Under the pieces are notes generated by a model. That model did not search any database, was not told the origin of the DNA, and worked only from the letters and a program-made list of their open reading frames with translations. This document shows positions 13,401 to 33,628 of a stretch of 64,000 nt of DNA, piece by piece. The DNA comes from Rivularia sp. MS3 (lineage in GTDB: Bacteria > Cyanobacteriota > Cyanobacteriia > Cyanobacteriales > Nostocaceae). The stretch's first letter is position 1; the number at the start of each line of letters is the position of its first letter. The stretch lies in the NCBI GenBank assembly GCA_019192545.1, contig JAHCMI010000049.1, positions 1 through 64,000 of the forward strand, read 5' to 3'. The position numbers and the translations under genes are program-made.

Positions 13401-14166
13401 TTTTTAATATTTGAAGTATAAGAGTGAGAGGTTTATATTTAACTTTTCGCTCTTATCTTTTTTACTATACGTTACTAAGAGCATTTCTACTTAGGGGTTG
13501 CTTTATTGTCATAGTTTCTCGTCGCTGTGTGACAGTATAAGCGTGTTACTGCGTTCAATTTTTTTTACTACTATTTATTTTGTCCTATTAATTTTGATGG
13601 CTTAGAAAAATAATTCGTAGGTTGGGTGAGTATAATTCGTAATTCGTAATTCGTAATTAATGCCCCATAAATAAAATTCAGGGGCTTCAACACAGCATAA
13701 TTGACATCTACGGATGAATCCGGGGGCTTTCAACCATTAATGTTTCACCGGTGAAACGGAGTGTAACCCAATACAGATGTTGGGTTGCGCTTCGCTTCAC
13801 CCAACCTACAATAAAACTAATAGCTAAAGTCATATTTATGACTGGAAAATAAGCCTTCAAGATTAAGGCTAACAAAATTCTGAAAAGATTCTCAAAATTT
13901 ATTGGAAATTAATCCCAAAAATTTGAAGTTATAGCAATCGCTGGCATTCACCTAATAACAAATGGGTGCCGCATTTTTGTGTGAAATCAGTTTTCAACAT
14001 GTCCAATAATCCCTAGATGCATAAACCAGAATCACTCAAACGTATAGTTAACAAGTGAAACTCAATTTCAGTATTACTAGTATTCTAAATACACGATGGG
14101 AAACTTTGTAATACAATTTGCAATATACAAGTAATACAATATTCCTCGTTTAGGAGGAGAGGTAAC
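13401..14166. other. 766-bp spacer: repeats, no gene seen
   Basis: The spacer contains TTCGTAA tandem repeats (about 13628-13660), a perfect 16-bp palindrome GTTTCACCGGTGAAAC (13742-13757), and a GTTGGGT...ACCCAAC hairpin with a GCGCTTCGC centre (about 13780-13808), a dispersed repeat type. The last 300 bp are AT-rich and probably hold the promoter of the sigma-like gene. I see no coding frame. Confidence 0.55.
14152..14162 (+). promoter_or_regulatory. Strong ribosome-binding site for the sigma-like gene
   Basis: AGGAGGAGAGG ends four bases before ATG 14167. It is a stronger Shine-Dalgarno than most in this window and fixes the start. Confidence 0.75.
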
Positions 14167-14811
14167 ATGCCCTCAAAGCAGATGGCAGAAACTAACGAAC
14201 ACCTATTAATTGACTCGGAATATCAACAGATAGTTGAAAAAATCGCTCGCAAGCATACTAGAAATAGTTCTATGTCTTGGGAAGATGCGGCACAAACGGC
14301 TCATGTAAAGGTTTTTCGGATGATAAAAGCGGGTAAATTTGAATGTCAGAAAACGAATAATTTTTATTGTTGGGCGGCTACTGTAGCGCGTAATTCAGTG
14401 ATAGATTTTGTGCGTAAGGAGAGTTTGCGTAACTGCCCGAGTTTAGATAAAACAATTGCTGGTACTGATGTTTCGTTGTTAGATACTGTCGCGGATAAAT
14501 TCGATTTATTGGATGCGGTAGAGCGTGCTGATGTTGTTGTTGTTGCTAAGGAAGCAATAAAAAAACTGGCAAAATTGTATCCAGAGCGAGGATATCTCAG
14601 GCTTTGGCAGGGATTAGTGGAAGGTAAAAAGCAGACTGAGTTAGCGTTAGATTTAGGGATAAATCAAAGTGAAGTCTCTCGTCGTCGCAAAGAACTTTTA
14701 GGGCGTGTCGCTCAAGAGTTAGGGTTGTTGCAACCTGAAGCTATCAAGCAAGAGCAAAATAAAAATCGTCAATCGAAAGCTAGTAGAAAACGTTCTCAAC
14801 AGCAGTGGTAA
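14167..14811 (+). CDS. Sigma-70-like regulator of the DUF1822/CHAT locus
   Basis: A 214-residue protein with the two-domain layout of small sigma factors. A region-2-like helical part (about 20-85, with WEDAAQTAHVKVFRMIKAGKF and CWAATVARNSVIDFVRKES, which parallels the core-binding helix ending in a DxxR-type motif) is joined by a linker to a region-4-like helix-turn-helix (about 145-185, GKKQTELALDLGINQSEVSRR). The C-terminal 25 residues are basic and low-complexity. Region 4 ends in SRRRKE rather than the usual RxRRAL, so it could be a divergent sigma or a sigma-like DNA-binding protein. It is followed on the same strand by the DUF1822 and CHAT genes. Confidence 0.75.
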   Translation: MPSKQMAETNEHLLIDSEYQQIVEKIARKHTRNSSMSWEDAAQTAHVKVFRMIKAGKFECQKTNNFYCWAATVARNSVIDFVRKESLRNCPSLDKTIAGTDVSLLDTVADKFDLLDAVERADVVVVAKEAIKKLAKLYPERGYLRLWQGLVEGKKQTELALDLGINQSEVSRRRKELLGRVAQELGLLQPEAIKQEQNKNRQSKASRKRSQQQW

Positions 14812-14955
14812 AGTCTTTTACAGTCAAATTTATCAAAAAAAAATAGAAAAACTGTACATAGAATCATTATCTCTTTCGTTAAAAGTAATAGACACCTCCA
14901 TAACTACTAAATTATTGACGAGAAGCAATGCTAATTCGTCTAGGAATATAAACCT

Positions 14956-16335
14956 ATGGGTAGAAATATCAGTCAATCAACATCTAATACGGGACAAAAA
15001 ATTATCCAGCAAATGCCGCAACCTGGAGAAATCTGGGAAGTCAATCGCTCGATACATTCTCCTGTAGAATTTTCTCAAGAGCAGCAATACCAACTTTACT
15101 CGGATGCAGCAAGACAGTTTATCAAGGGAATTTATCCTCCCATAAATGTGATGATTGTCACAGCGGAAAACAGCGAAATGTTTTCTCAAGAATGGCAAGT
15201 AATCTCGGTAATGATGCTGTCTGAAGAAATTGAATTTCTAAGCGATGTTGATTTACTGATTCCCTCAGATATTTCTGGTTTAAAGGAAGATGTGCTAGCT
15301 CAAACTTGGCTGGTTGAAGAAATGTTTGCCTGCAATTTAGTTAAACCAGTGGGTAAGCGCTTATCGCGGAATATTTATGATTTATTGCTAAGTGCGGGAG
15401 ATTATTATCATCAAATAGTTGATCAACCACCGAAAAAATCGGAAATTGAATTTGCTGGGTTAAAGATTGGAACCAAAAAGGCGATTGAAGATTCGCGAAT
15501 AATGGATTTTCATCGATGTAAATTAGCTTGTAGCGATATATTAAGCATTCCTGTAGCTGCTTACCGCACTTATTTAAACAATTTGAATTTTACCGAAGCG
15601 GTATTAGAAGAAGCTTTAGAGGTAGATAAAGACTTGTTATTTGATGCGAAAAAAAAAGAAAGCAAAATTAATCTTAGTCAGTGGTTGCGAAATACAATTG
15701 ATACTCAATGGCAGTTACTTTGGCAAACGCCATCTTTAGCGATCGCTACTAGAAGTAAAATTGATTCAAAACCCGATGGGGATGAAATTGCAGCATTAAT
15801 CAATCAAGTATCTTCCCCGGATGAGCATTACAGAAAAAAAGCCGCGAAAAAGTTAGGGGAAATAGCTTTAGGAAATGCCGATGCGATTGCAGCCTTAGTT
15901 AATTTGATACGCACAACTCAAGATGATGAAACTCTATGGGTAGCGGTAGAAAGTTTATGGAAAATCAACCCCGGAAACCAGGCAGCAGGTATAAGAAAAG
16001 TCAAGCTGCTTGATTTGGGAATGCAGCTAGCTGGTGAAGCTGTGGCTTTAGCGGTAGCTTTGGTACCTAAAGCTGACGGAAAAATAGGTGTTTTGCTACA
16101 GGCTTATTCCACAGATAGAGAAACTGACGATAGCGATAATTCCAAACCTTTACTACATTTACCTCCTGGATTAAAGTTAATATTACTTTCCGAAACCGGA
16201 AAAATTTTACGGGAAGTTACAGCTAGAGATGCTGATATTTATATTCAACTTAAATTCAGCGGTGAAAAGAGCGAACAGTTTAGCGTTAGGGTTGCTTTGA
16301 ATGAAGCAAGTATTACAGAAGATTTTGAAATTTAA
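14956..16335 (+). CDS. DUF1822-type protein with HEAT-like repeats
   Basis: A 459-residue soluble protein. The segment LSQWLRNTIDTQWQLLW (about 240-256) and the C-terminal third (about 349-459: LLDLGMQLAGEAVALAVAL, LPPGLKLILLSETG, and the ending VALNEASITEDFEI) match my memory of the cyanobacterial DUF1822 family. Between them, residues about 275-340 look like two HEAT-type helical repeats (AAKKLGEIAL...AIAALVNLI...AVESLWKI). The function of DUF1822 is unknown. The gene sits 144 bp after the sigma-like gene and before the CHAT gene, all on the plus strand. An internal ATG at 15013 is an alternative start. Confidence 0.65.
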   Translation: MGRNISQSTSNTGQKIIQQMPQPGEIWEVNRSIHSPVEFSQEQQYQLYSDAARQFIKGIYPPINVMIVTAENSEMFSQEWQVISVMMLSEEIEFLSDVDLLIPSDISGLKEDVLAQTWLVEEMFACNLVKPVGKRLSRNIYDLLLSAGDYYHQIVDQPPKKSEIEFAGLKIGTKKAIEDSRIMDFHRCKLACSDILSIPVAAYRTYLNNLNFTEAVLEEALEVDKDLLFDAKKKESKINLSQWLRNTIDTQWQLLWQTPSLAIATRSKIDSKPDGDEIAALINQVSSPDEHYRKKAAKKLGEIALGNADAIAALVNLIRTTQDDETLWVAVESLWKINPGNQAAGIRKVKLLDLGMQLAGEAVALAVALVPKADGKIGVLLQAYSTDRETDDSDNSKPLLHLPPGLKLILLSETGKILREVTARDADIYIQLKFSGEKSEQFSVRVALNEASITEDFEI

Positions 16336-16728
16336 AAATTAGAAATTAGAAATTGGGGATTGGTAATTGGGAATTGGGCATTGTATTTAAGCTGTAGGAT
16401 GTGTTGTCGCGCAGCGCAACGCACCATAAAGATTACTCCTATCAAGTTCTAAGATGACTTATCTGTTCCCTCTACTCCTCTGCGCTCTCTGCGATTTTAT
16501 AATCGCAAATATTTTGGTGAGAAATTAATAATAAAAAATAAACTTGTTTTCTTTTATCTTAATATTTACTCTACGAATCACCTCTTAAAATCCAATTAGC
16601 AATATAGCAGTTTTTAGTTGAATATAATACACCCCTCTCTTTAATAAGGAGAGGGGAAGAGGTGAGGTTTCGATGTATTGCAATCAAATCAAAGGCGCTA
16701 TATTTAAGAATTATTAATTAATTATTCT
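16336..16728. other. 393-bp spacer with intact dispersed palindrome
   Basis: The spacer carries AGAAATTGGGGATTGG-type repeats, a GTAGGATGTGTTG...CAACGCACC fragment (about 16394-16426) and an uninterrupted palindrome copy at 16632-16656. It separates the DUF1822 and CHAT genes, so they may be transcribed independently. Confidence 0.6.
16632..16656. repeat. Dispersed palindrome, uninterrupted copy
   Basis: Arms CCCCTCTC (16632-16639) and GAGAGGGG (16649-16656) surround a centre containing TTAATAA. It represents an empty version of the sites occupied by elements A and B. Confidence 0.7.
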
Positions 16729-19512
16729 ATGCCGTTAAATTTTTCTCATAAAAATCTCCGGGGTTATTCGTTCGTAAATCAAGACTTAACAAAAGCGGAT
16801 TTTTCGTATTCAGATATTCGCGGTGCAAATTTTACGAATGCTGTTTTAAAAGATGCTAATTTTCATCATGCTATTGCCGGAGTGCAAAATTTACGGGTCA
16901 TTGCTTTGATGGCTTTTTCATTTTTTATGGCTGCACTTTGCGGATATGCATCTGGTTTAACGGGAATTATTGCTTCACAATATCTTGCTTCTGTTTACGG
17001 TGGAAGTACAAGTATTATTAGCGGTGTTAGTGGAGTAACTAATCATGTGGTTGGGGTTACTGCTGTAATTATATTTTCACTGTTAACACTATTTTTTATT
17101 GGAACTATTTATAGAGGCTTTTCAGCAGATGTATGGTTTATTTTAGCCGGTTCTGAAGCTGTAATTATCGTCATTATTGGGCTAATTTCAATTATTATTT
17201 GGGGTTATCCCGGTTTAAAAGCTGCGGTGTTGGGAGCTTGGGGTGCTGCTGGGGCTGGACTTTGGTCTTTAATTGGAGTTATTACTGTTGCTTTAGCAGT
17301 ATTTTGGTCTGCCCAAGAACCTTTTTTTGGCAAAATATTAAAAGTAGCGGCTTGGTTTTTAGGTTTATTCACGGCGACATTTATTTTTAGTGCTGTATTT
17401 CAAGTGTCAGATGTTGCTTTACCTTTGACTTTGTTTTTGGCTACAGTTGTCACTTGTGTGGGAATATATTCTGGGTTCAAAGCTTTAGCTGAGGATAATA
17501 AATATGCTTTGATTCGTACTGTGGGGATTAATATTTCTGCTATTGGTGGCACTAGTTTCCGCAATACAGATTTGACGAATAGCGACTTATCTCATGCAAT
17601 TCTCAAAAATACTGACTTTACAAATGCTAATTTGACTCGTACTAATTTTCATTTAGCTAAAAATATCGATTTATCTAGAGTTAAAAATACTATTTTAATT
17701 AATCCAGCAGTCAGAGATTTAGTTGTTAGCAAACAAGGTGCAAATAAATCCTGTAAAGGTTTTAATCTTCAAGGTGCAAATCTGGAAAATGCCAATCTGA
17801 ACGATATTAACTTAACCGAAGCCGATATCAGCGAAGCTACTTTAAAAAACGCTTTACTCGAAAGAGCTAATTTAACAAAAACTCAAGCTTTAAATACTAA
17901 CTTCGAGCAAGCTAACTTAACCGCTGCTTGTTTAGAAGCATGGAATATTGACAGCACCACGCAATTAGAAAACACAATTTGCGAATATGTCTTTTTGCTG
18001 AATAATCAATGCGAACGTCGTCCGAGTAGTGGCAGCTTTGCATCGGGTGAATTCGCCAAGTTATTTCAAGTGGTATTAAATACCGTTGATTTAATTTTTC
18101 GTAATGGCTTAGATTTACAAGGTTTATCTGCTGCTTTAACAAAAGTTAGAAATGAAAACCAAGGTACCAATATTGCAATTCAAAGTATTGAAAATAAAGG
18201 TGACGGTGTTGTTGTCGTGCGGGTAGAAGTTCCTGAAGATAGCGATAAACAAAAAATTCATGCCGAATTTACTCAAGGTTATCAAGTCGCATTACAAGCT
18301 TTAGAAGCCAAATATCAAGCACAATTGCAAAGTAAAGACGAACAAATTGCAATTTATAAACAGCATCAAGCCGATTTAAGAAATTTAATGCAGATAGCCG
18401 CTCCCAAGCACAAGCAGCAACAAGAAAAATTGGTAATTCTCAATTTGCATCAAGGAGATTTACAAAATGGCTTTTCGGTGACTTTGCGAATTGCCAAACA
18501 AGGGAATCATCCTTATTTTGAATCTAAAGGTAAATTACCCCCGGCGATAGAATTAAAAGAATATTATCAAAAATGGCGCATAGCTTACCGGCAAAGCTTA
18601 GGAATCAATTCTCGGTTAGATATTCCCGATACTCAAATTACCAATATCAGTCAGTGCGATTATTTTTATGAATCCTCTGTAAGTGCCGAAAAATTACAGC
18701 AAAATATAAATTCATGGCTTAATTCTGATATATTTAGACCTATAAAAGAACAATTATTAGAACAGTTAAATCCCACCGACATAGTTAGATTTATTCTGCA
18801 AACCGAAGATAAACAAGTACGAAGACTACCATTACAACTGTGGGATTTTTTTGATAAGTATCCCAAGACTGAAATGGCTTTGAGTAGCCCAAGTTATAAA
18901 AGTACGGAAAAATTATTAGCTCCAGAAAAAATCAGAATTCTAGCAATTTTGGGTAACAGCAGCGGAATTAATATTGATAAAGATAAAGAATTATTAGAAA
19001 ATTTACCAAATGCAGAAGTTGTTTTTTTAGTAGAGCCTCAAAGACAGCAGCTAAACGATGAACTTTGGACGCAAGCTTGGCATATTTTATTTTTTGCCGG
19101 ACATAGTTCTACCGTATCTGTTGAAAAAGACGAAAAAGAAGAAGGACAAATTTGTATTAATCAAACCGATACTTTAACTATTTCGGAGTTGAAATATGCT
19201 CTTACAAAAGCCATTGAACGAGGTTTATTTTTGGCAATCTTTAATTCCTGCGATGGTTTGGGGTTAGCTGCTGACTTAGCCGATTTACAAATTCCACAAA
19301 TCATAGTTATGCGCGAGCCAGTTCCCGATAAAGTAGCGCAGGAGTTTCTCAAAAACTTTTTGCAAGAATATTCCCAAGGAAAAACCTTATATCAATCGGT
19401 ACGTGGAGGTAGAGAAAAATTGCAAGGTTTAGAAAATGAATTTCCTTGCGCTACTTGGTTACCGGTTATCTGCCAAAATCCCGCAGAAATTCCACCTTTG
19501 TGGTTGGAATAA
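16729..19512 (+). CDS. Membrane pentapeptide-repeat CHAT protease-like protein
   Basis: A 927-residue multidomain protein. Pentapeptide repeats (A(D/N)Lxx type) occupy about 5-45 and again about 275-405. They bracket a block of about six hydrophobic segments (about 55-255), so the protein should be anchored in a membrane. A helical/coiled stretch (about 505-560) leads to a C-terminal CHAT domain (about 570-925), a caspase-like fold. Its catalytic His is in LFFAGHS (His792) and its Cys in AIFNSCDG (Cys841), so the dyad is intact. CHAT domains act as proteases in bacterial suicide and CRISPR-linked systems. The substrate here is unknown; a neighbouring protein is a natural suspect (inference). 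Confidence 0.85.
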   Translation: MPLNFSHKNLRGYSFVNQDLTKADFSYSDIRGANFTNAVLKDANFHHAIAGVQNLRVIALMAFSFFMAALCGYASGLTGIIASQYLASVYGGSTSIISGVSGVTNHVVGVTAVIIFSLLTLFFIGTIYRGFSADVWFILAGSEAVIIVIIGLISIIIWGYPGLKAAVLGAWGAAGAGLWSLIGVITVALAVFWSAQEPFFGKILKVAAWFLGLFTATFIFSAVFQVSDVALPLTLFLATVVTCVGIYSGFKALAEDNKYALIRTVGINISAIGGTSFRNTDLTNSDLSHAILKNTDFTNANLTRTNFHLAKNIDLSRVKNTILINPAVRDLVVSKQGANKSCKGFNLQGANLENANLNDINLTEADISEATLKNALLERANLTKTQALNTNFEQANLTAACLEAWNIDSTTQLENTICEYVFLLNNQCERRPSSGSFASGEFAKLFQVVLNTVDLIFRNGLDLQGLSAALTKVRNENQGTNIAIQSIENKGDGVVVVRVEVPEDSDKQKIHAEFTQGYQVALQALEAKYQAQLQSKDEQIAIYKQHQADLRNLMQIAAPKHKQQQEKLVILNLHQGDLQNGFSVTLRIAKQGNHPYFESKGKLPPAIELKEYYQKWRIAYRQSLGINSRLDIPDTQITNISQCDYFYESSVSAEKLQQNINSWLNSDIFRPIKEQLLEQLNPTDIVRFILQTEDKQVRRLPLQLWDFFDKYPKTEMALSSPSYKSTEKLLAPEKIRILAILGNSSGINIDKDKELLENLPNAEVVFLVEPQRQQLNDELWTQAWHILFFAGHSSTVSVEKDEKEEGQICINQTDTLTISELKYALTKAIERGLFLAIFNSCDGLGLAADLADLQIPQIIVMREPVPDKVAQEFLKNFLQEYSQGKTLYQSVRGGREKLQGLENEFPCATWLPVICQNPAEIPPLWLE

Positions 19513-31366: not shown

Positions 31367-32179
31367 ATGAAACATAAATTGAAATCAAACAATCTTTATT
31401 TACTGGCTTTTCTCTGTTTGGGAACAATCATAATGATTGTCTTTGGAAGTCATTTTCAAAACCTGTATTACAATCTAGAAGATTTAGTCAGACAATTAGA
31501 AGCTCCTTATCATAAATGGGTAGAGAAACAAGATTCAACTAGCCCTGTTCTGCTAATTCCTATTGCTTTTATTGGTGGTTTAATTGCAAGCATTTCTCCA
31601 TGTATTTTATCTTTGCTTCCGGTTAATCTCAGCTATATTGGTACGTTAAATATAAAGTCCCGAAAAGATGCATTTTTTAAAGCCAGCTTTTTCGTTTTAG
31701 GAGCAGTAAGTATATTCAGCTTGTTCGGATTATTTGCATCTTTCGCTTCATCTGTAATGGTGGATTTTCGGGGATACATTAATGTTGTAGTTGGTGCAAT
31801 TATTCTGTTGATGGGGCTGAGTTTTGCGGGAATATTTCACTTGCCTTTACCAAAAAAACAGGTACGTATACCCGTTCCCGGCCCCTTCGGTGCTGGTTTA
31901 ACTTTTGCTTTGGTAACTTCTCCTTGTGCTTCTCCCGTGCTTTTTGCAGTATTAGCAACCGCTGCTGCTAGCGGTTCTCAGGCTCTGAGTACTGTGACAA
32001 TGATAAGTTACGCTCTGGGATATACGGCGGTAATATTTTTTGCCAGCTTATTTACAGGCTTGGTCAAACAACGACAGATATTATTAACTAAATCTCAATG
32101 GATTATCCGCTTAGGAAGCGGTGCATTGATTTTAGCCGGTGGATTTTACTTGGTTGCGGGCATTAAATGGTTTTTCTGA
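31367..32179 (+). CDS. ccdA: Cytochrome c biogenesis/thiol-transfer membrane protein CcdA
   Basis: A 270-residue polytopic protein of the CcdA/DsbD family, which carries reducing equivalents from cytoplasmic thioredoxin across the membrane to periplasmic or lumenal thioredoxin-like proteins. The family Cys pair is present in the two SPC motifs: ISPCILSLLP (Cys79) and TSPCASPVLF (Cys187). About seven hydrophobic helices follow an N-terminal anchor. It is probably functionally linked to the thioredoxin lipoprotein upstream, and the sigma gene begins only 55 bp downstream. Confidence 0.88.
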   Translation: MKHKLKSNNLYLLAFLCLGTIIMIVFGSHFQNLYYNLEDLVRQLEAPYHKWVEKQDSTSPVLLIPIAFIGGLIASISPCILSLLPVNLSYIGTLNIKSRKDAFFKASFFVLGAVSIFSLFGLFASFASSVMVDFRGYINVVVGAIILLMGLSFAGIFHLPLPKKQVRIPVPGPFGAGLTFALVTSPCASPVLFAVLATAAASGSQALSTVTMISYALGYTAVIFFASLFTGLVKQRQILLTKSQWIIRLGSGALILAGGFYLVAGIKWFF

Positions 32180-32234
32180 TAAGACTGTAACAACACATAC
32201 ACTGAAACCAATTAGATTGCAATCTAAGTCCGAT

Positions 32235-32792
32235 ATGAGTTCATCAAACCAGACAGAAGCAGAATTATTCCAAGCATTACAAGCGGGAGATTTATCGGCT
32301 TTAGGTGCTATTTATGACCGCTATGGCGAGGCTGTATACCGTCTGGCTTTACGAATATTAGGTGATACAAGTGAAGCCGAAGACTTAACGCAAGAAATTT
32401 TTCTGGCATTTTGGCGCAATGCTAAATATGACCCCAATCGAGGGAAAATGCTGGTTTATTTACTGACGATGACTAGAAGTAGAGCAATTAATCGTTTGCA
32501 TCAAAAATCCAGTCAACAAAAGCTTTTACAAAGGTGTCAGCGCAGTATTCCGACTCATAATGAAAGTAACTTAATGGAAAAGGTTTCTTTGGGAGAAGTT
32601 TCTCAACTTATTAGTAAAGCTTTAGAGGAAATACCAGAAAACCAGCAGCAAGTACTAAAAATGGCTTACTACGAAGGTTTAAGTCAATCAGAAATCACCG
32701 AAAAATTGAATATACCTTTGGGTACTGTCAAAACTCGTACCAGACAAGGACTTTTAAAACTGAGAAAATTATTAAAGGATTTAGTAGACTAA
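32235..32792 (+). CDS. ECF-type sigma-70 factor
   Basis: About 185 residues with region 2 (ALGAIYDRYGEAVYRLALRIL, then AEDLTQEIFLAFW) and region 4 (EGLSQSEITEKLNIPLGTVKTR), the standard ECF layout. An open frame begins at 32139 inside ccdA, but ATG 32235 (MSSSNQTEAELFQALQAGD) gives the conventional N-terminus. The anti-sigma gene follows with 2 bp between, so the pair is translationally linked. The RxRQGLLKLRKLL tail is typical. Probable role: induced transcription after envelope or redox stress (inference from the neighbours). Confidence 0.92.
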   Translation: MSSSNQTEAELFQALQAGDLSALGAIYDRYGEAVYRLALRILGDTSEAEDLTQEIFLAFWRNAKYDPNRGKMLVYLLTMTRSRAINRLHQKSSQQKLLQRCQRSIPTHNESNLMEKVSLGEVSQLISKALEEIPENQQQVLKMAYYEGLSQSEITEKLNIPLGTVKTRTRQGLLKLRKLLKDLVD

Positions 32793-32794
32793 TT

Positions 32795-33628
32795 ATGGAA
32801 CCCGATAAATTACCTGCAAACTGGGAAGCTTTAATAACAGGTTATGTTTTGAGCGATTTAACCCCAGAAGAAGCAGCTTTAGTAAAACAGTATTTAGAAA
32901 CTTACCCAGAATTAGCATGTGAAGTCGAAAGCTTGCAGGCAACTTTAGCCTTGTTTCCCCTATCATTACCCGAAACTAAACCATCTCAAGCATTGCGATC
33001 GCAAATTCTCGAAGCAGCAGCAAAAGACTTATCAACTACCGTAGAAACTAATACAAAAACATCTCCCCCCATCTCCTCCTCCCCTCTTCCCCTCCCTTCT
33101 CCAAAACCTTGGTTAAAAATAGCCGCAGTCACAGCAATGGGATTAATTGCGAGTTTGGGATTCTTTAATTATCGACTGCATCAAAAACTTGCAAAAGTAG
33201 AAACCGATTTATCTAATTACCGTTTGCAAGCGGAATTATCTAAAACACAGCAAGAATTATCTCGCTATCAAGAAGCTTTATCGGTACTAAAACAACCAAA
33301 CAATCGTTTATTAACACTTAAAAGCATCACCCCCGATATTTCTTCTTCTGGTAGTTTAGTAATTGCACCAAATTCAGAAACTGCAATATTAACTTTGAAA
33401 AACCTTCCGGATTTGCCAGAAGATAAGGTATATCGCTTGTGGGCTTTTGTTGGTAATAAAAAAGTTAAATGTGCAAAATTTAATCCGGATTCTCAAGGTA
33501 AAGTATTGCTAAAAATTCCTTTGCAAAAGTGGGGAAATACCACTGAAGTTTTTGTCACCATCGAACCGAAAAAAGGTTTAGAATTACCTGTGGGAAAAAC
33601 AGTAATGAAAGGTTCGAGAGCAATTTAG
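32795..33628 (+). CDS. Anti-sigma factor, RskA-like
   Basis: A 277-residue membrane protein. The N-terminal part (about 1-80) has the anti-sigma-domain pattern (TGYVLSDLTPEEAALVKQYL) with no HxxxCxxC zinc motif. A Pro-rich linker leads to one transmembrane helix (about 106-124), a short helical stretch with KTQQELSRYQEAL, and an external RskA-type domain (about 165-277) with TAILTLKNLPDLPEDKVYRLWAF. It should bind the ECF sigma upstream and release it by regulated proteolysis on an external signal. The start codon follows the sigma stop by 2 bp. Confidence 0.9.
   Translation: MEPDKLPANWEALITGYVLSDLTPEEAALVKQYLETYPELACEVESLQATLALFPLSLPETKPSQALRSQILEAAAKDLSTTVETNTKTSPPISSSPLPLPSPKPWLKIAAVTAMGLIASLGFFNYRLHQKLAKVETDLSNYRLQAELSKTQQELSRYQEALSVLKQPNNRLLTLKSITPDISSSGSLVIAPNSETAILTLKNLPDLPEDKVYRLWAFVGNKKVKCAKFNPDSQGKVLLKIPLQKWGNTTEVFVTIEPKKGLELPVGKTVMKGSRAI

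Follow-up and report, generated by a model that had tools for sequence, protein, structure and literature searches.

What task might be shared by a sigma factor, a DUF1822 protein and a membrane CHAT protease encoded in succession on one strand? This question is raised by a 64,000-nucleotide stretch of the genome of the cyanobacterium Rivularia sp. MS3 (GCA_019192545.1, contig JAHCMI010000049.1, positions 1-64,000, forward strand), which we refer to as the window. The original prediction for this locus had proposed that the CHAT enzyme cleaves either the DUF1822 protein or its sigma-like partner and thereby connects a membrane signal to transcription. That model fits our results well, with the qualification that the evidence points to the DUF1822 protein, and not to the sigma factor, as the partner concerned. 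We consider it fairly probable that the locus encodes a protease-released switch in which DUF1822 acts as a two-module anti-sigma factor. Its N-terminal half (N-half) would hold the extracytoplasmic function (ECF) sigma factor, and its C-terminal domain (C-domain), with HEAT-like helices, would present the protein to the CHAT protease. The pentapeptide/multi-transmembrane part of the CHAT protein would sense a membrane signal and switch on the C-terminal caspase-like domain, which would cut DUF1822 either in the linker or on the C-terminal side. Once set free, perhaps after further degradation, the sigma factor would transcribe its targets, including its own gene.

The three genes, with spacers of 144 and 393 bp, lie where they had been predicted, and their domain assignments as sigma-like, DUF1822/HEAT and membrane CHAT proteins were borne out by Pfam and NCBIfam. 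The sigma protein matches Sigma70_r2 in Pfam (E 7.8e-10), with no region-4 family in the scan at E <= 1, and over residues 18-185 matches NCBIfam TIGR02937 (sigma70-ECF, E 3e-14, above cut-off). A profile of its family (17 rows, one of them the canonical sigma factor of a locus numbered L028) aligned with the ECF sigma factor SigW at E 9.6e-15 over positions 1-195. The DUF1822 match (PF08852, E 1.1e-32) is confined to residues 213-458 of the second protein, which also matches HEAT_2 (E 6.9e-7) and, by a crude hydropathy count, has one hydrophobic stretch and otherwise no clear membrane segment. Pentapeptide repeats (E 2.4e-26), a CHAT domain (E 1.8e-11) and, by the same crude count, seven hydrophobic segments were found in the third protein. 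Its His792/Cys841 dyad, described as intact in the original prediction, was verified by position, and neither residue varies among the 13 proteins aligned, that of the window included. More broadly, the pattern GH[SG]...[NS][SA]C is present in 54 of 56 proteins, the window's among them (the exceptions are L061 and L129; the contig-truncated L027 was excluded from the count).

Gene-neighbourhood comparisons, which had been suggested with the original prediction, revealed that the sigma-like/DUF1822/CHAT triplet recurs both within this genome and in others. The genome itself (9.19 Mb) has 22 DUF1822 matches, counted as 21 genes (two matches are in one gene). An EACC2-type CHAT gene lies within 1.5 kb downstream on the same strand of 13 of these 21 genes, and likewise of 22 of 40 DUF1822 genes sampled from other genomes (a sample picked by hand as about every third row among the matches listed, with the own genome and the weak end left out). 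Counted by Pfam, CHAT follows 12 of the 21 own-genome DUF1822 genes within 3 kb on the same strand, compared with 0.23 expected (P about 9e-19). On the other side of DUF1822, the 61 genes analysed yielded 58 upstream open reading frames, of which three exceeding 600 aa were dropped; 53 of the 55 that remained formed one cluster by single linkage, with a canonical ECF sigma factor among its members, and the genes of the window and of L110 were singletons. When the upstream genes were grouped into profiles by hand (covering 50 of the 55), these groups matched the sigma family of the window at E-values of 1.7e-8 to 0.009, versus 0.11 to 0.65 for control profiles, with five groups matching weakly (probabilities of 4.5% for g490, 8.5% for g310, 12% for g380, 17% for g319 and 23% for g460). 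Of 146 genomes sampled from the phylum, 102 have a match to DUF1822 as such, many of the matches being weak.

The most informative loci were those having orthologs of the window's own sigma factor. With the own genome included, a search of 195 genomes of the order at E <= 1e-10 identified such orthologs in 18; at E <= 1e-15 they were present in 6 of 8 genomes of the genus and, of 192 genomes of the family, in 55. The set of window-type loci comprised the window, L049, L050, 18 regions from other genomes and 40 further regions; 17 listed places, one with an internal stop and the 16 weakest, were not included. Its 62 sigma rows represent 60 distinct loci, after L239 and L247 were dropped as probable duplicates of L049 and L050, whose contigs they equal in length and layout. 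A DUF1822-type partner is encoded downstream of the sigma gene in 52 of the 60. In 28 loci this partner consists of the N-half only (202-292 aa), and not one of them is followed on the same strand by CHAT over the next 7 kb, or over the shorter stretch that two of the contigs offer (5.5 kb in L054, 2.0 kb in L269). In the other 24 the partner has both halves (341-493 aa), and 23 of them have CHAT; the remaining eight loci have neither partner nor CHAT. This association between C-domain and CHAT (Fisher 7e-14) is among loci that share ancestry. On the sigma tree the C-domain changes six times. Well-supported branches offer three independent pairs, and in nearly all random pairings CHAT changes together with the C-domain in all three. 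Among genomes with N-half-only loci, a query with the whole CHAT region and the linker domain preceding it, which we named chatM, matched somewhere in 2 of 11 (G372 and G091; E <= 1e-60).

The C-domain, rather than the N-half, is also the part by which the window's DUF1822 protein resembles the others. Of 11 other DUF1822 groups, nine matched its C-half profile with probabilities of 97-100% and two had lower values (g390, 4.8%; g460, 58%), whereas its N-half profile matched none of the 11. In the set of 61 DUF1822 proteins, an EACC2-CHAT gene comes directly after 33 of the 44 with a C-half profile match versus 2 of the 17 without one (counts of the second and third profile iterations; the fifth gives 33 of 46 and 2 of 15).

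Evidence on what the N-terminal part may do was obtained from L028, in the same genome, and its ortholog L198 (74% identical), in another family of the order. Both begin with a canonical ECF sigma gene (Sigma70_r2 E 1e-15 and 1.4e-16), followed by a gene for a protein of 238 or 226 aa and then by a CHAT gene. The N-terminus of the middle protein (residues 15-83 in L028) matches the start of the NCBIfam 'anti-sigma factor' NF052375 (7.4e-11 and 4.6e-9), below the whole-protein cut-off, as is expected because only one domain is present, and its remainder is the DUF1822 C-domain. The same N-terminus matches that of an RskA-type anti-sigma factor encoded in the window (phmmer 1.9e-5 and 1.2e-6; the set searched was small). 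Pfam RskA_N was listed for L028 at E 0.23 and not for L198, and a comparison of the L028 N-terminus with the PDB was neutral, RskA (4nqw, E 0.21) ranking behind a de novo design (0.06). The RskA-type protein (32795-33628; RskA_C 3.8e-19) belongs to a classical pair of ECF sigma factor (217 aa) and membrane anti-sigma factor at 32139-33628, and the best match of this sigma factor among the compared upstream genes is the L028 sigma factor (phmmer 9.4e-42). An ordinary sigma/anti-sigma pair therefore seems to have swapped its membrane part for a DUF1822 C-domain and gained a CHAT gene. Because in window-type loci the C-domain comes and goes with CHAT, and because the N-terminus of the L028 and L198 proteins is an anti-sigma domain, the sequence evidence favours DUF1822, not the sigma factor, as the protease-facing protein.

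The sigma factor has two further features that are relevant here. Near its C-terminus, RS-x(2-4)-W occurs in 45 of 52 orthologs with a partner versus 3 of 8 without (Fisher 0.006, for related sequences), and the tail of the window's protein (residues 190-214) is a possible docking peptide for the DUF1822 N-half. Upstream alignment of close relatives revealed GGAAC-N16/17-AGTC, a classical form of ECF promoter, common to the regions 82-111 bp before the sigma start. The pattern is found ahead of the sigma gene in 8 of the 24 loci with both halves, 2 of the 28 with the N-half only (at ~270 bp) and 1 of the 8 without a partner, for a background of 0.0076 per 300 b. It is a post hoc pattern, since it was picked after the alignment had been seen, and when the sequences preceding 21 sigma genes were searched blindly for motifs, nothing stood out clearly from shuffles. 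The site fits with autoregulation of the sigma gene, at least in the relatives.

The CHAT proteins linked to DUF1822 vary in their sensor part, which may be CHASE2, STAND/WD40, NACHT, periplasmic-binding-like or, as in the window, pentapeptide/transmembrane. The stretch before the window's CHAT domain is co-linear with the start of CHAT proteins fused to CHASE2, STAND/WD40, NACHT or a periplasmic-binding-like part; this constant module is probably EACC2. The chatM linker, for which no Pfam family was listed, is common to L021 and L026 among the own-genome loci fetched. Among the 23 distinct window-type loci with CHAT it is present in 20 (the exceptions are L056, L057 and L061). The linker was examined as a possible TRADD-N domain, and no support for this was obtained. 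It has NKGDG at the likely position, placed by a poor model only, of the Gly-Ser turn between strands 2 and 3 that the accessible portion of Kaur, Iyer, Burroughs and Aravind (2021, eLife, PMC8195603) gives for TRADD-N.

Taken further, there is the possibility, to which we give even chances, that the DUF1822 C-domain and EACC2-CHAT together constitute a portable release module, mounted on unrelated sigma-holding domains and coupled to many sensors, as a CRISPR-free counterpart of Craspase built from different proteins. Were this so, perhaps non-sigma partners are served as well, and a cell could have a dozen or so parallel channels from caspase to transcription.

Several observations weigh against a protease-released anti-sigma switch. 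Pfam scans recognize no anti-sigma domain in the window's N-half, and the association with CHAT is imperfect: 11 of the 44 C-domain proteins have no EACC2-CHAT gene directly after them (such a gene occurs in another part of the stretch retrieved for L018 and L026, and further downstream in L125), and 2 of the 17 unmatched proteins do. L050/L247, probably one locus, has the C-domain without CHAT, and its genome (G453, 93% complete) has no match to the whole chatM-CHAT query at E <= 1e-60. The three independent supported pairs on the sigma tree are too few for significance (sign test 0.25). In L199-L206 the C-domain adjoins a conserved protein of ~230-239 aa without similarity to sigma factors (neither Pfam scans of three of these proteins nor a comparison of five with sigma profiles gave a match), and CHAT is found in one of these eight loci (L206); the release module may have a further partner in this neighbour. 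The promoter-like site of the window itself is degenerate and fails the GGAAC-N16/17-AGTC pattern, and a looser pattern was found before none of 23 CHAT genes and 1 of 23 DUF1822 genes. Structure prediction offered little help. The DUF1822 model was poor (mean predicted local distance difference test score, pLDDT, of 44.6 with 3 sequences) and usable only in parts of the C-half, with pLDDT of about 65-78 at residues 271-330 and 78-86 at 401-459, lower values between and very low ones before; a Foldseek search with it returned low TM-scores from which no inference was drawn. The model of CHAT residues 416-927 was unusable (mean pLDDT 38.3, 2 sequences).

Three other explanations were weighed against the same evidence. 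The genes could be chance neighbours, loosely co-localized without a shared pathway and transcribed as separate units across their spacers, which do exceed the median gap of 30 bp between upstream gene and DUF1822 across 58 loci. That explanation is barely credible, as it is contradicted by the recurrence, by an adjacency far above expectation in the own genome and by the presence of CHAT in all but one of the loci with both DUF1822 halves. It is quite unlikely, but not as readily dismissed, that the locus is a toxin-antitoxin system in which the N-half would be a MazF-like RNase and the sigma-like protein a DNA-binding antitoxin, with CHAT removing the C-domain to free the toxin and cause growth arrest or death. 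The tail of MazE binds its toxin, and the conserved R.RSQ..W tail of the sigma-like protein would do likewise. MazF accounts for five of the seven weak PDB matches of the window's N-half profile (best E 0.036), hhalign of the N-half to a cyanobacterial PemK gave E 0.012 versus 0.13-0.89 for controls, and 28 loci have the sigma gene and the N-half as a unit that lacks CHAT. However, the MazF similarity is below significance, the hhalign probability is only 3.6%, and Pfam scans of 16 N-halves at E <= 10 did not list PemK. In addition, most of the sigma family profile can be aligned with SigW, and L028 and L198 have an anti-sigma domain in the place of the N-half. Cell death, the other outcome offered in the original prediction, is favoured by none of the observations, unless the weak MazF-like reading of the N-half holds.

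The alternative closest to a release switch retains all three partners and dispenses with cleavage of DUF1822. The C-domain would then be a docking platform for CHAT, which would cut itself or an unlinked target, the signal reaching the sigma factor by a conformational relay. The co-occurrence data show that C-domain and CHAT belong together and say nothing on cutting, and autopeptidase activation of the caspase is suggested in the accessible portion of Kaur et al. (PMC8195603). We nevertheless regard docking without cleavage of DUF1822 as unlikely, given that the catalytic pattern is kept in nearly all of the CHAT proteins and that control of a sigma factor through proteolysis of its inhibitor is known from RseA, RsiW and Csx30 (PMC10028731, in its accessible portion).

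Table 1. Features of the sigma/DUF1822/CHAT locus, in window coordinates; residue numbers refer to the encoded proteins.
Feature	Position	Strand	Basis
Degenerate ECF-type promoter-like site, GAAAC-N17-AGTA	14057..14082	+	Sequence and upstream alignment
ECF-type sigma factor, 214 aa	14167..14811	+	Sigma70_r2, TIGR02937 and SigW profile match
Sigma C-terminal tail past region 4, ending R.RSQ..W	14734..14808	+	Alignment of orthologs
DUF1822 gene, two-part protein	14956-16335	+	PF08852
DUF1822 N-half, residues 1-226, proposed sigma-binding part, weakly MazF-like	14956..15633	+	Loci without C-half
DUF1822 C-domain, residues 227-459, HEAT-like helices and beta-rich end, proposed protease-facing part	15634..16335	+	Profile matches
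Pentapeptide-multi-transmembrane-pentapeptide-linker-CHAT protein, 927 aa, proposed sensor protease	16729..19512	+	Pfam, hydropathy, relatives
Linker domain chatM, residues 416-560, kind unassigned	17974..18408	+	Common to relatives; no Pfam family listed
Constant module (probably EACC2) and CHAT protease domain, residues 546-927	18364..19509	+	Alignment with relatives
His792 codon, catalytic dyad	19102..19104	+	Invariant 13/13; position verified
Cys841 codon, catalytic dyad	19249..19251	+	Invariant 13/13; position verified

Some loci depart from the arrangement in the window. DUF1822 group g390 (L098, L099, L101-L105, L009 and L011) is the highest-scoring, has a C-half unlike that of the window and has no EACC2-CHAT gene directly after it; within it, L102 has a TPR-CHAT gene after DUF1822 and L103 a gene of similar length. 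Trypsin-like genes, one of them TPR-fused, follow sigma/DUF1822 pairs at L123:4612-6378 and L125:4510-7980, and these pairs share 54-63% identity with the pair of L017, next to which comes an EACC2-CHAT-STAND-WD40 gene. A swap of proteases after DUF1822 (trypsin-like in L123 and L125, M48 in L130) was considered and set aside because both trypsin-like proteins have starts that by eye resemble signal peptides, an EACC2-CHAT start lies downstream in L125, and the gap in L130 is 412 bp. A window-type sigma gene is followed by one for a PmbA/TldD metallopeptidase in two genomes, both from a single genus (L063:5752-7891 and L064:6688-8097), with an N-half gene present or absent between them. IS605/TnpB-type genes were observed at the locus edge in L051:4209-5444 and between DUF1822 and CHAT in L056:3651-4871.

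Six partial DUF1822 matches were found on plasmids. The one on the 358 kb plasmid of Nostoc sp. UHCC 0302 (NZ_CP151101.1:139532-140191) covers the N-half only (residues 1-226, 47% identity); L270, on a contig of equal length and probably this same locus, has the sigma gene and no CHAT. A phage origin was rejected, as the DUF1822 query had no phage match and neither the DUF1822 nor the CHAT profile had a relative in viral contigs. Pfam CHAT has 69 match places in the own genome, and 11 of the CHAT match places, most of them high-scoring, are within 46 kb of one contig (G000:C131:94005-139417).

If the proposed switch is correct, the subset of CHAT proteins linked to DUF1822 in this genome gains a concrete candidate substrate, partner and read-out, and DUF1822 would gain a specific role. 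Regulated transcription would also provide a testable alternative to the view that bacterial caspases mean cell death.

Among known systems, HetF, a CHAT protein of heterocyst-forming cyanobacteria, has a weak NCBIfam match to the CHAT region of the window's protein (1.5e-4), although the match is far below the cut-off (20 versus 1200 bits) and the architecture is different. There is a parallel in gene order to RskA, RseA and RsiW, whose genes likewise come directly after that of an ECF sigma factor and which free the sigma factor by regulated proteolysis. Those anti-sigma factors are membrane proteins cut by membrane proteases, whereas the DUF1822 protein has no clear membrane segment beyond one stretch and its linked protease is CHAT.

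The association itself has been noted before. The original prediction had stated that no function was described for DUF1822-CHAT neighbours; however, the accessible portion of Kaur et al. (PMC8195603) describes EACC2-caspase neighbourhoods with ECF sigma factors and DUF1822 and proposes caspase-triggered activation with sigma-mediated transcription. Those systems, so far as that portion describes them, share with the window's locus the three kinds of genes, a variable sensor on the protease and a caspase-triggered sigma response. They differ in that their proteins start with the EACC2-caspase module and have the variable part at the C-terminus, whereas the window's protein has its sensor at the N-terminus and CHAT at the C-terminus. 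Among the loci of the 61 DUF1822 genes, the CHAT match starts near the N-terminus in all CHAT-positive ones except L122, L021 and the window. Furthermore, that portion calls DUF1822 a TPR protein and gives it no role of its own, while we argue that it is a two-module anti-sigma factor. In the literature searched, with most subscription journals outside it, there was no statement that DUF1822 is an anti-sigma factor, and its reading as a modular one looks to be new here.

The proposed functional analogue is Craspase, in which, according to the accessible portion of PMC10028731, the CHAT protease Csx29 cleaves Csx30, a protein that binds the ECF factor CASP-sigma through its N-terminal part. By analogy, both would combine a CHAT protease, a two-part sigma inhibitor cut in its C-terminal part and an ECF sigma factor. 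Csx30 and Csx29 were not among the PDB matches of the window's profiles (E <= 1), a comparison that distant kin may escape. PADLOC made no CRISPR call for the three proteins, with no dedicated search for an adjoining cas7-11 gene or CRISPR array; it returned one weak reverse transcriptase match to the DUF1822 protein (0.0096). The sensor of Craspase is RNA-guided, whereas that of the window's protein would be its pentapeptide/membrane part. If our proposal is correct, CHAT-triggered release of a sigma factor would thus be a broader signalling mode and not a CRISPR oddity.

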